Source: Chromera velia (Eukaryota > Sar > Chromeraceae). Taken from it: a DNA stretch of 22,500 bases. The translations under genes and the position numbers were made by a program. The notes under the pieces are model-generated. The model was not told the DNA's origin. It made no database searches and saw only the letters and a list, made by a program, of their open reading frames with translations. The stretch spans positions 7,755-30,254 of the forward strand of contig JAHBMJ010000041.1 in NCBI GenBank assembly GCA_018398765.1, written 5' to 3'. Shown piece after piece: positions 9,039 through 22,159 of this stretch. How positions within the stretch are numbered: the stretch's first letter is position 1; each line of letters opens with the position of its first letter.

Positions 9039-12000
9039 AGGCTGCTTCTTTCAGCAATCGGCGCTGACTATGATCTTAATTCCTGTCTCTGTTTGCAGAT
9101 CGAGAGATGACGAGCTGTCTCAGTTCGCTGCCTCTGACACAGACTTGATGCTGACGATGCTGACGTTCGTGCTTCTGATTTCTTACAGTGCTGCGGTGTC
9201 GTTCTCGTGTGACCTCTACAAGAGCAAGTCAGTGAATGAATACGAACATAAATAAAACAAAAGGAGCCGTTTTTCACCGTCTGTCTCTGCTCCTGATAAG
9301 TGCATGACTGGTGCTGAAGTTGAGCCCCTATTTCTGAGTCCTCTTGCTGGAGGCGTGTTGAGTGAGGTCGACTGGGGACTTTCTTTTGTGCGTGTTGTTG
9401 TGAGTTTTCGTCAAAGTTGACGATGAGCTTTGTGTAATAATCCTCGAAATCCATGCATCTGGTGTGGGACTTGCAGGGCCATTCCTGCATTGGCTGGGTG
9501 CACAGCTGCTGTGCTCGGGTGTCTGGCGGGCATAGGTCTAGCGTCACTTTTCGGAGTGAAGTTTGTCCCCACAGCCCTGGTGACAATCTTCCTGGTCCTC
9601 GGTATCGGTGTGGACGATGCCTTCGTGATTTTGAACGCCTACAACCTCGCGTATCTGGTTGAACTTGCAAGGGTGGGTCGGTTTTCTTGTGTGGCGTGTT
9701 TGGGTAGTCATCTGCTTGTACGCATTGAAGGAGAGACAGACCATATGAATGAGTCCTTGTGGATAGACAGATCTCAAGACGCACAGACAACCGGCAATTG
9801 TCTATCCTTCTGGTTCCCTCTCTGGCCGACAGGCCCGATTTGCTGCTGCTCCTTTTTCCCCCTGCCATATAAGCATCATTCTCATCCTCCCTGCCCCCTT
9901 CGCTTGCAGGATCGAGTGGCCCTCGCAATGAAGGACTCCGGAGTGGGTATCACAATGACGACGTCCACCAACATTCTCGCGTTCCTCATCGGAAGCTCGG
10001 CACCCTACCTGGCCATCAGGAACTTTTGTTACTTTTCTGCACTCGGAATGCTCATGGGGTGAGTCAGTCTCTCAGCCAAACAGAGAGAATCGGTTTTTCA
10101 AAAGCCATCTGTTACTTTTGTTCTCTGTTCCTTCGACGGCGCTTATAGTGCTGCAATTTCATTCAGCTGATCGACACCTGGCTGCGATCTGGCAGGCCCC
10201 TTCGACCGCATGGAAGCTCTCACGCAGCCCGCCCCGACCGTTCAAGAGAGAAACGCATGATGCTGATAAAACTATGTAACCCAACGAACGCTTTGCAGGT
10301 ACATCATGAGTAACACTTTCTTCGTCGCGTTCCTTGTCTTGGACGCCAAGCGTGAGGAGGCCGGTCGTCTTCTCTGTTTCTGTCTGCCGGCACAGAGCGA
10401 CGTGGAGGCCCGAGTCGAGGCAAGAGAGAACAAAAAGATGCAAGCGACAATGCAGATGCAAGCCACCGGATCTCACGGAAGAAACGGAGGAGCCACAGGG
10501 TCCCATGGGCGCAACATGGCTGCCACAGGAAGGAACGTTTCGAACATGACTATGAGGCAAACCTTCCAGGGCACTCTCGCAGAGGCACAGGCAAAGAACC
10601 CCAACAACTTCTCGCTGGTCGCCTTCAAGGCCAGGATCGCGATGAAGTATGATGAGGAGGCCCAAGCTGCGGGTCCTAAAAGGTCGGGTCTATCTATCTA
10701 TCTATCTATCTGTCTGTCTGTCTGTCGTCCTGTCGTCTATCTGTCTGTCTGTCTGTCTGTCTAGTTTGTCGGTTTGCCAGCCTCTCTGTTTGTCGATGCT
10801 AGAGTGGGCGGGAAAAGAATGGCAGCGAGAGTTTCCAAAAAATTTTGTTCTTTAGAGACAGATCGTAAATCGCATTCTACTTCTCTTTCCTGTTGCAGGA
10901 TGGTGACCCGCCCAGAGCACCTGAAGATGGGGAATGTCGGATCTCCCTCAGGTCGGTCGGTGTGTCTCTGTTTGTCTTGCTGTCTTTCTCTCCTCTTTGT
11001 CGTTAGCCGTCTTCACCGCACGCTCTAATAGCATGGTGCTGCTCCCCTCAATCAAGTTTCACAGCCGCGTGAGGGTTAAGTGTTTCATGTTTTTGTTTGT
11101 GCGCGAGCCCGTACACTGTAGCCGGCTTTCTATGCATTTGTCTCCTTCCTTCTGTTTATTGTATGCAGGAAAGTCCCATATCTCGATTTCGTACAACCAC
11201 AGAGACGGAACCGGAAGACCGAGGGACAGGGAGAGAGACAGACAGAGAAGACGTGCCAATGATCCGGAGGCAGGGCCCACCCCCGCAGTCAGGGGAGGCG
11301 GACAGGGAGGAGGCATGAACGGAACCATGAACGCGACAGGAAGGACTAACCTGCACTCCACACAGCACAAAATTCTTCAACAGGTCCGTCAGTCAGACAG
11401 AGCGTCGGCCTCTGAGTTCTATTCACTATCCTTTCTTTCGCAGCCACAGGAACTGTATTTGGAGCATTTTTTCGCCTCAAAATAAAAACGAAAGTTTCCC
11501 ACTCTTTCCTCCCATTCTCTCCATCAATAAATTGCTCGACCGTTCCACTGTTGAATTCTTGGTCTTTCTTCCTGCACTCTTGAATCCCTCCACCCATCCA
11601 TCGATCGATCGGTCGCGCCTCCCTCCCTCCGTGCAGGTCCCCGAACTCCTCCACGACGAAATCTTTGAGGAGCCCAAAGGACTGGTGGGTCGAGGATGGC
11701 GTATGTTCTTCCTGCACTACTATGGTCCCTTCATCCTCCACAAGTGGGTGAAGATCTTCCTCCTCCTCGGGTTCGCCGGACTCTTTGCGGCTGCGTGCGT
11801 CGGGTTCTCTCAACTGGGGGCTGGTCTGGATCTGACGGTCAGTTCTTTTTGTCTGCATGCATGTGTTGGTGCATGAGATTCGTGGGTCTTCGTCTAATGG
11901 TTTCTTTGTGTGTCGGTGTCCGATTTTTCTGGCTTAGATGGTTTGACGAACAGTGCTGATGGGTGGGAAGTTGAACGAGAGAGCGAAGAGCACTTTTCCC

Positions 12001-20113: not shown

Positions 20114-22159
20114 CTACGAGAAGAAAAGACACGCGGAGTCCCCATCGAGAGCCATCAGGGTATGCTCCACGTCCTGCAGCGCGTTGTCGTCCACCTCCCC
20201 GTCCGATTCGCCCTCTAGACCCCCCACACCCGCACCCGCCCCTCCCCCTCCCCCAGACATCACATACCCCATAGTCACAGGATCAATTCCGTGCAGGTGC
20301 AGAATGCTCCCTCTGTTTTGAGTGTTGGCATCTGAGGCTGCACTCACAATTCTCTCCGGACGCATCCGGTCCGACGGGGTGCCCTGCTCCCTCACGGGCG
20401 ACTGTCCCCTCTTCTTCAGTACACCTCTCACCTTCGCGTTCTGCACTTTTGCTGTCAAAGTTTGTAGAGCGCCTAGGAGTGCGGTGAGTCTCTGCTGGTC
20501 GACACCACCACCAGGGGACTCAATACCGGACGGGGGGGGGTAGGGATAGGCGTAGGCTTGCGGGGGTGGGTATGCATAGGGGCCCGGAGGGGGGTAAAAT
20601 TGGGGAGGCATGCCATGAGCAGGCGCATTCTCTTCAACTCGCATTTGCTTTCCCCTTCCTGTTCTGTCGTCGGCTTCGGCAAAGAAACGGGGAGGAGACC
20701 CACCTTTTACACCCGGAGATTTGAACTGTTCCTCAAGACGGGCGTGCTCGTCGGCAACGATTGCTGCTGCAAATTCTGCGCCCTTTGTCTGCTGGAGTGT
20801 ATTGGCTCTGGACTTCAAACGTTCGTATGCTACTGCCTTCTGCAGCGTTCTCGTAAGATGACTCTGGTTGGCTAGAAGGTGGTCAAGCAAAGCGGGGACA
20901 GTTCGGATAAGGACCTCATTGGGTACATCGTCTTTTTTCATGTCTGCAATGTTCTTGACGTCCTCATCTGTCCACTTGAGCTCTTTGATGATGTCCTTGA
21001 AGTGGAGGTCTTCAACGTACTCTCTGCATGTATGAATACACATAGGGAGGGGAGGGGAGGACCATGCAGAGGGACGGATCATTCACACATCTATAAGGTT
21101 GTGCATACTTTCATCTCTTTATCCACCTACTAACCCCACCAATTGATTCAATCGCTCATGCATTCCTTGATGAATTCCTTCGTCACCTTTCTCAGCCCCT
21201 CCTTGTCTCGGCTTGATAATCTAAAAAAAGATAAATTCTTCTGATTTGAAAACGAATGCACACAAACATCACAACACATCACAACATGTTCGAAGATCAA
21301 GGCATGACTGATGGAAGAGCATTGATTGAAAAGTTCATCTGCGTTCCAGCTTGACAAGGCAACGCTGGCTCCCGCCTGATTTCTCTATATACGTCCCCCG
21401 TACCCACCTGTACATAACGAGAAAGATCGCGAAGAGCGGTTTTGAGATGATGTCTCCAATGCCGTGCATCAAATCAATCACGGAGAGATCCACGATCCCA
21501 TGACTGGGGTCGATATCGTCCCTCAAGATCCAGGCTGTCGGGAAGATTGCCCAACCAATCAGCATGGTGCACGAAGCAATGATCAGCATGTTCCCTGCTT
21601 TCTTCGAACAGGCATGTTGTTTGCAGACTTTGATGATCGACATGGCCTGCTTTCCTGTTGTACAAATGATCACAAGCACAATCGTCAGTCCGAACGAGAA
21701 CAAGAGCCAGTGAGCGGAGCCCTGAATGATCTCTGTGGCGTTTGCCATCACCAGAGCACCAAACACGGCCCCGGCATAAAAAGTCACCCCCTCCATACGG
21801 ATCGTTTCTGCCCAATCGTACATGATCAGGGGACACCCAACAATGTATCCCCAGTACGCATAGTCGATCGTGTTGAAGCCAATGGGCTGATCCCGATACA
21901 AGTCAAAGGCCTGAGCTGCCTTGAGGGAATACTCAACGAATGAGATGGCTGAAATGATCACTCCAATGAAACGGGAAAGAGGCAACTGTTTTGCCCCGAC
22001 GAGATTCTTGTCGAGTCCGTTCTCCCACTTCAGTCGTGTCACGTTACGGGTCCCGATGAAGTTTGCTGATCGGTGGTACAGCCACATGGCAGCCAGAGCC
22101 TGTACAACTGCCACAATGATGAAGAAGATGCCGAGCTCGGCCAGGCTGAGGGTCGCCAT
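20114..22159 (-). CDS. Atypical microbial (type 1) rhodopsin with long cytosolic tail, 2 exons, 553 aa
   Basis: Seven-helix retinal protein. Exon 1 is 22159-21408 and exon 2 is 21023-20114. The intron starts GTGGGT and ends ATGCAG, and the phase matches (codon AG|A). Helix F has WAIFPTAW (W203, P207, W210, matching bacteriorhodopsin W182, P186, W189). Helix G has GDIISKPLF, with D236 and retinal lysine K240 matching D212 and K216. Helix C reads AYWGYIVGCPLIMYD. Anchored on its Pro, the R82 position is A101, the proton-acceptor D85 position is G104, T90 is C109, and D96 is kept as D115. Standard outward proton pumping is therefore unlikely, and a sensory or channel role is inferred. No signal peptide is seen; helix A starts near residue 9. 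The ATG context is AAAAATGG. Residues 252-355 of the tail look helical and charged, 392-415 are Tyr/Pro-rich, and 508-519 are Gly-rich. No tail domain is recognised. The family call is firm, the tail junction less so. Confidence 0.85.
21148..21220 (-). other. Possible alternative terminal exon of the rhodopsin gene
   Basis: A pyrimidine-rich acceptor (CTTTTTTTAG) ends at 21221. Joined to rhodopsin exon 1 in the correct phase, it gives YRLSSRDKEGLRKVTKEF and stops at 21148, a 274-residue protein with a 24-residue basic tail. This acceptor lacks the GCAG ending found at nearly every other intron in the window, so the long-tail form is preferred. It may be a minor isoform or a chance site. Confidence 0.3.

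Follow-up and report, generated by a model that had tools for sequence, protein, structure and literature searches.

The window analysed here, a 22,500-nucleotide stretch of Chromera velia contig JAHBMJ010000041.1, carries a two-exon rhodopsin gene on its minus strand. Exon 1 (21408..22159) opens with an ATG at 22159 and covers residues 1-250 and the first two bases of codon 251, a region that spans all seven transmembrane helices. Its minus-strand frame runs from 22159 to 21408 as 250 codons followed by AG and meets a GT donor at 21407-21406; the plus-strand translation of the same interval is interrupted by stops. A GT...AG intron of 384 bases in phase 2 (21024..21407, minus strand), inferred from the sequence, ends with its acceptor AG immediately before 21023, and the frame continues through exon 2 (20114..21023, minus strand), a C-terminal tail of about 303 residues, to the stop at 20114. 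The spliced gene, as predicted from genomic DNA, comprises 554 codons, stop included. An earlier note on this DNA had placed a rhodopsin at 21408..22159 without giving a strand; the coordinates are right, and its numbering of P110, W203, P207, W210, D236 and K240 is correct in the minus-strand translation. Elsewhere in the window, positions 9430-10062 of the plus strand belong to a Patched / sterol-sensing-domain gene (Pfam Patched, 1e-22; Sterol-sensing, 2.4e-18), which possibly has further exons between about 5.6 and 15.7 kb; seven other open frames were scanned and matched no family.

Residue equivalences were set by a gap-free alignment on P110 and follow the bacteriorhodopsin numbering of the cited papers. 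Helix C, residues 100-115 (21815..21862, minus strand), reads Y-A-Y-W-G-Y-I-V-G-C-P-L-I-M-Y-D, which gives R82=A101, D85=G104, W86=Y105, T89=G108, T90=C109 and D96=D115. Helix G (21440..21454, minus strand) runs from D236, equivalent to the counterion D212, to K240, equivalent to the retinal lysine K216. When the protein was aligned with BlChR2, HcKCR1 and HcKCR2 under four MAFFT settings, the helix-C and helix-G columns were identical in all four, and the earlier assignment of Ala to R82, Gly to D85, Gly to T89 and Cys to T90 is upheld. Residues 96-120 hold no Arg (the nearest are R89 and R121) and have D99, D115 and E118 as their only acids. Shifting helix C therefore does not restore an Arg/acid pair if C109-P110 and D115 are kept in register. 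The earlier note had named as fatal to its reading a structural alignment with an Arg and a carboxylate at the R82 and D85 positions; sequence alignment places neither of them there. These comparisons confirm, at the level of sequence, that the helix-C arginine and proton acceptor are absent from the window protein. Helix B is placed less firmly. Its residues Y77-K80 (21920..21931, minus strand) were located by MAFFT alignment to the HcKCRs, with Y77 on Y81 in 4/4 runs and K80 on K84 in 2/4, a gap standing there in the other two; the HMMER alignment shifts helix B by three residues relative to MAFFT and sets K80 on Y81. Because the two programs disagree here, any part of Y77 in a counterion network is uncertain.

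The C. velia genome (177.8 Mb in 4040 contigs) contains a family of such genes. The Bac_rhodopsin profile gave 31 matches, counted per exon; with the window protein as query there were 21 exon matches, spread over eight contigs. Seven genes were modelled, on contigs that we label C41 (the window), C1634, C3544, C114, C2906, C1110 and C1338; the C114 model begins within helix B. The match on the eighth contig, an end fragment on C3330 that looks nearly identical to C1110, was excluded from the paralogue count. This fragment (L052) holds a rhodopsin start whose N-terminus matches that of C1110 over the visible stretch, and may be a recent duplicate or an unmerged haplotype. Listed in the order of contigs above, the residues at position 82 are A,S,Q,M,M,M,K, those at position 85 are G,G,G,G,G,G,T and those at position 89 are G,G,G,G,G,G,S, so that the G...G-C-P pattern of helix C is found in 6/7 modelled paralogues. 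Constant in all seven are 86 Y, 90 C, 96 D, 212 D and 216 K, the last two being the D236-K240 pair of helix G. The H232 equivalent is kept in 7/7 and the helix-B Tyr (Y77) in 6/7, with W in one. At the K80 position, 6/7 have K or R; at that of D229, 3/7 have D or E and 4/7 have A or S; an aromatic residue at the A101 or D229 positions occurs in 0/7.

The tail is a family trait as well. Its start (20876..21022, minus strand; about residues 252-300) follows the pattern E-D-L-H-x-K-x-I ... W ... P-E-E-V-x-I-x-T-V-P-A-L-L, which was recovered in 7/7 paralogue models, the models being guided by the window protein. An intron of paralogue C1634 (locus L036, 2570-2898; splice-aware alignment guided by the window protein) falls at the equivalent point and in the same phase, and exon 2 as the sole query finds the C1634 tail at 1.1e-11. 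This conservation of tail and intron position supports the join between exon 1 and exon 2. The first part of the conserved tail start has a further match in BlChR2, in the part of the chain that follows helix G; searched by itself, the exon 2 tail had no PDB match up to E=1 and stayed below the cut-off of every Pfam family. We suggest that the tail is cytosolic, where it may anchor or signal.

Taken together, the sequence data confirm that this stretch holds a real gene for a type-1 retinal protein, neither a chance frame nor a product of decay. Pfam Bac_rhodopsin (PF01036) matches residues 65-248 of the window protein with E=5.5e-10, which, with K240 present in every paralogue, bears out the earlier assignment to type-1 rhodopsins with a retinal lysine. 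A single-sequence AlphaFold run produced seven helices in a low-confidence model (mean pLDDT 42.9). Exon 1 and C1634, its closest paralogue, are identical at 149/247 aligned residues. Between these two, identities at the three codon positions are 0.68/0.82/0.40 and pN is 0.24 against a pS of 0.78 (saturated), values that show purifying selection. A gene model drawn from genomic DNA leaves some room for a pseudogene, or for a model error that masks the true helix C. We consider this highly improbable, given the 250 open codons of exon 1, the position of helix C mid-exon and away from splice sites, the selection against change and the recurrence of the helix-C pattern in six of the seven models.

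Sequence searches place the family among channelrhodopsins. With exon 1 as a phmmer query against PDB sequences up to E=1, all 11 matches belong by name to the KCR/BCCR group, with BlChR2 as the best (8.9e-06). A family profile of six rows, C114 being left out as incomplete, found 17 PDB sequences at a threshold of 0.001, of which 15, including all the best, are channelrhodopsins or their variants by name: BlChR2 (2.2e-23), HcKCR2 (3.3e-20), HcKCR1 (1.9e-16), ChRmine (4.8e-16), HcCCR (7.3e-15), GtCCR2 (1.2e-13) and cation channel rhodopsin 4 (1.1e-10) among them. The last two of the 17 are rhodopsin I (1e-9) and rhodopsin-2 (1.6e-7). BlChR2 appears as B1ChR2, from Bilabrum, in PMC9765531, and HcKCR1, HcKCR2 and HcCCR are from Hyphochytrium catenoides. 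We also built a tree of 16 rows over helices C to G, with the root set on three other rhodopsins of the C. velia genome. The seven paralogues form one clade with support of 100/100, in agreement with the earlier suggestion of a separate branch. They fall on the channel side of the root by a weak split (73/92), in a tree that takes in no pump from outside the C. velia genome, and their grouping with BlChR2 and the HcKCRs alone has support of only 40/30. Profile matches and tree together place the family among the pump-like (bacteriorhodopsin-like) channelrhodopsins, in the neighbourhood of the kalium channelrhodopsins.

Two other rhodopsin types were considered and dismissed. By depositors' names, no chlorophyte channelrhodopsin occurs among the 11 phmmer or the 17 profile PDB sequences, and a ChR2-type protein was set aside since no ChR2-like chain is among the nearest PDB sequences. 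Heliorhodopsins are defined by an ESL motif in helix C together with SxxxK in helix G (PMC9601134); the window protein has two glycines in helix C and DxxxK in helix G, which rules this type out. Rhodopsins are known from viruses (PMC9601134). A scan of viral contigs with the family alignment gave 25 pattern matches and no relative, and one of bacterial and archaeal genome contigs gave 45 and no relative; pump-like control queries, viral contigs included, gave 10 and 21 pattern matches and likewise no relative. These scans are insensitive, because the pump-like control came up empty in the viral contigs even though viral rhodopsins exist, so their negative outcome is weak evidence.

The earlier note had called loss of the arginine rare even among channelrhodopsins, and this does not hold in the neighbourhood of the window protein. 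Among the aligned PDB sequences, BlChR2, HcKCR1 and HcKCR2 have W at position 82, GtCCR2 has P and cation channel rhodopsin 4 has K; ChRmine retains R. The literature gives a similar picture: the position is taken by W102 in HcKCRs, and cryptophyte BCCRs have P or E there (PMC9765531). In a 2022 survey (PMC9601134), nine residues replace Arg82 in at least 10 sequences each (H, K, Q, A, P, S, Y, E and M), and the Ala of the window protein is one of these. The same source groups every rhodopsin that lacks Arg82, the A-type among them, under the umbrella term Alt-rhodopsins, which covers the window protein as a descriptive label rather than a clade. Judging from these sequences, Arg82 loss is not rare among the close relatives of the window protein.

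Nor is the remainder of the pattern exceptional. Govorunova et al. (2022, mBio, PMC9765531) described three C. velia KCR homologues, Cvel_28437 (= ChvCCR1), Cvel_30056 and Cvel_21397, in which D85 is replaced by a non-carboxylate and T89 by Gly, a combination that they called very unusual, and found that the three cluster with the H. catenoides channelrhodopsins. According to that report, ChvCCR1 gave voltage-dependent, reversing, Na+-permeable photocurrents in HEK293 cells, Cvel_30056 gave smaller photocurrents that were left uncharacterised, and Cvel_21397 was very poorly expressed and gave zero current. The window protein fits the published description of this trio in its relationship to the HcChRs, its neutral residue 85 and its Gly at 89. 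Three proteins are published, whereas our family has seven members, six of them with the G/G pattern. The window gene is possibly one of the published trio and thus already tested, and it could be the poorly expressed, currentless Cvel_21397. In our sequences the Gly stands at 89 and the Cys at 90; the wording on helix C in PMC9765531 may mix these two neighbouring positions.

These comparisons bear on how the protein is to be classed. By sequence it is closer to the pump-like channelrhodopsins (BCCR, PLCR) than to pumps. That group is further marked by Asp at D85 and D96, of which the window protein has the second (D115) and has Gly in place of the first (G104). Asp at 85 is not strictly required in the group, because the published C. 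velia members are without it and ChvCCR1 conducts. Kalium channelrhodopsins are marked by Trp at position 102 and by an aromatic residue, Tyr or Phe, at 222; the window protein has A101 and D229 there. G104 and G108, together with the profile and tree results, place it in the C. velia subgroup with a non-carboxylate at 85, Gly at 89 and a relationship to the HcChRs. The window protein therefore adds a member to a subgroup of pump-like channelrhodopsins that has already been published, and the added interest lies in the seven-member series and the conserved tail.

HcKCR1, HcKCR2, HcCCR and BlChR2, the best PDB matches, also lack Arg82, where they have Trp, but differ from the window protein in retaining Asp85 and Thr89. 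The Y81/Y106/D229 network of the HcKCRs corresponds to Y77/Y105/D236 here, and D116, H225 and C110 correspond to D115, H232 and C109. Y77 (W in one paralogue), Y105, D115, H232, D236 and K240 are thus kept as in the HcKCRs. A101 aligns with HcKCR W102 and D229 with HcKCR Y222, a position that is T in HcCCR and F in BlChR2. The wider group found by the profile (ChRmine, GtCCR2 and cation channel rhodopsin 4) shares the D96 homologue and Tyr at W86, but differs in having Asp at 85 and R, P and K, respectively, at 82. Its T-C-P motif shares the Cys with the G-C-P of the window protein. The earlier comparison of this triplet with the TCP of algal channelrhodopsins is sound as regards the Cys, which is, however, common to all channel relatives aligned.

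In HcKCR1 and HcCCR, the Schiff base pairs with helix-G Asp229, held by Tyr81 and Tyr106, and helix-C Asp105 lies farther away in a salt bridge to Lys84 (PMC10359266); hydrogen bonds from Y81 and Y106 to the D229 counterion of HcKCR1 are reported in PMC7615185 as well. The absorption of HcKCR1 moves from 521 to 508 nm in D105N, a shift of about 13 nm, and D229N absorbs at 386 nm with the Schiff-base proton lost (PMC7615185). The earlier note had expected D236 to be alone near the Schiff base and the colour to differ from that of pumps. One conserved carboxylate is indeed what we would expect at this site, an arrangement less exotic than it seemed given that a helix-G Asp is already the main counterion of HcKCRs. 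A colour difference would by analogy be moderate, given the small shift in D105N. Since the equivalents of D236, Y105 and (by MAFFT) Y77 are kept, a visible pigment with one counterion is predicted.

We consider it likely that the window gene is a nuclear gene for a pump-like channelrhodopsin with a conserved tail, working as a light-gated cation channel that is not K+-selective and has D236 as its sole counterion. Conduction, counterion and acceptor are what we infer for the window protein itself, the light-gated passive cation conductance by analogy. In the mechanism that we propose, retinal on K240 would be stabilised by a single carboxylate, D236 of helix G, which Y77 of helix B and Y105 of helix C probably keep in place in an HcKCR-like manner. 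Light would isomerise the retinal, and the Schiff-base proton would pass to D236 or to a water-linked site, bypassing the missing helix-C acid. D115 would participate in opening, and a passive path for cations (Na+/H+) would form. K+ selectivity is not expected, because it needs the homologues of W102 and Y222 (PMC9765531, PMC10359266), which are A101 and D229 here. Helix C is unwound mid-way in ChRmine and likewise in the HcKCRs (PMC7615185), and by analogy the two helix-C glycines of the window protein would suit an unwound helix C.

A neutral residue at 85 also recalls anion channelrhodopsins, the known members of which have a non-carboxylate at Asp85 according to a review and a later paper. 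We regard anion conduction by the window protein as very unlikely: its nearest relatives in the PDB profile search are cation channels, ChvCCR1 has substantial Na+ permeability (PMC9765531), and a neutral 85 need not mean anion selectivity, as NlCCR shows.

The helix-C acid itself presents a puzzle. Neutralisation of D105, the D85 homologue, abolishes currents in HcKCR1 and HcCCR (PMC10359266) and in HcKCR1 and HcKCR2 (PMC7615185), yet ChvCCR1 conducts with a neutral 85. The helix-C Asp is thus indispensable for current in all three H. catenoides proteins and is the assigned proton acceptor in HcKCR1. Its loss is harmful in close relatives, which counts against a channel. The window protein may accordingly be a non-conducting sensory rhodopsin, in which channel function decayed with the loss of the acid and signalling proceeds through the tail. 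The conserved tail start in the seven paralogue models would fit such a role, as would the currentless Cvel_21397, with the reservation that it was so poorly expressed. We nevertheless think this explanation unlikely, because currents were obtained from two of the three C. velia relatives tested (PMC9765531), and because D115, H232 and the helix-C Tyr are kept in 7/7 paralogues and the helix-B Tyr in 6/7.

If the protein is a cation channel, as we prefer, the proton may be taken by D236 or by a replacement acid such as D229, or the subgroup may gate without transfer to a carboxylate. We tentatively propose, as a possibility somewhat short of even, that the window protein and its sisters gate without a helix-C acceptor or Arg, that D236 alone is counterion and acceptor, and that the helix-B residue K80 (K/R in 6/7) and, in the window protein, D229 as an acid of the vestibule rewire the site. 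Were this true, C. velia channels would tolerate a change that abolishes the currents of HcKCR1, HcKCR2 and HcCCR. The seven natural variants (82 A/S/Q/M/K, 85 G/T, 89 G/S) make the destination of the Schiff-base proton and the opening of the pore testable by comparison.

Other rhodopsins of unusual composition were noticed in the same genome. On the minus strand of L035 (C2788), a 760-codon frame encodes a rhodopsin with Arg at 82, Ala in place of D85 and V-N at 89-90, preceded by repeats and a Cys-rich segment; this rhodopsin looks like a pump paralogue without its former acceptor. C774 (L030) has a similar Cys-rich part ahead of a rhodopsin with D-T-D. A plus-strand rhodopsin frame on C3670 (L037, 1871-2827) combines Arg at 82 with Gly in place of D85 (R-Y-M-G-W) and lacks a TP/CP motif. 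On C122 (L033), the helix F-G exon of a pump-like rhodopsin occurs twice, at 1536-1682 and 2577-2723, about 1 kb apart and in identical 106-residue frames, which would reflect a tandem exon duplication, alternative exons or an assembly artefact. Finally, a further group of rhodopsins carries Gln in place of both D85 and D96: Q-T-Q in L040, L041 and L044 (C357, C1176 and C1489), Q-T-Q with Lys at 82 in L049 (C2384), and Q-S-Q in L032 (C4024). A QTQ motif has been reported for C. velia, next to the heliorhodopsins (PMC9601134).
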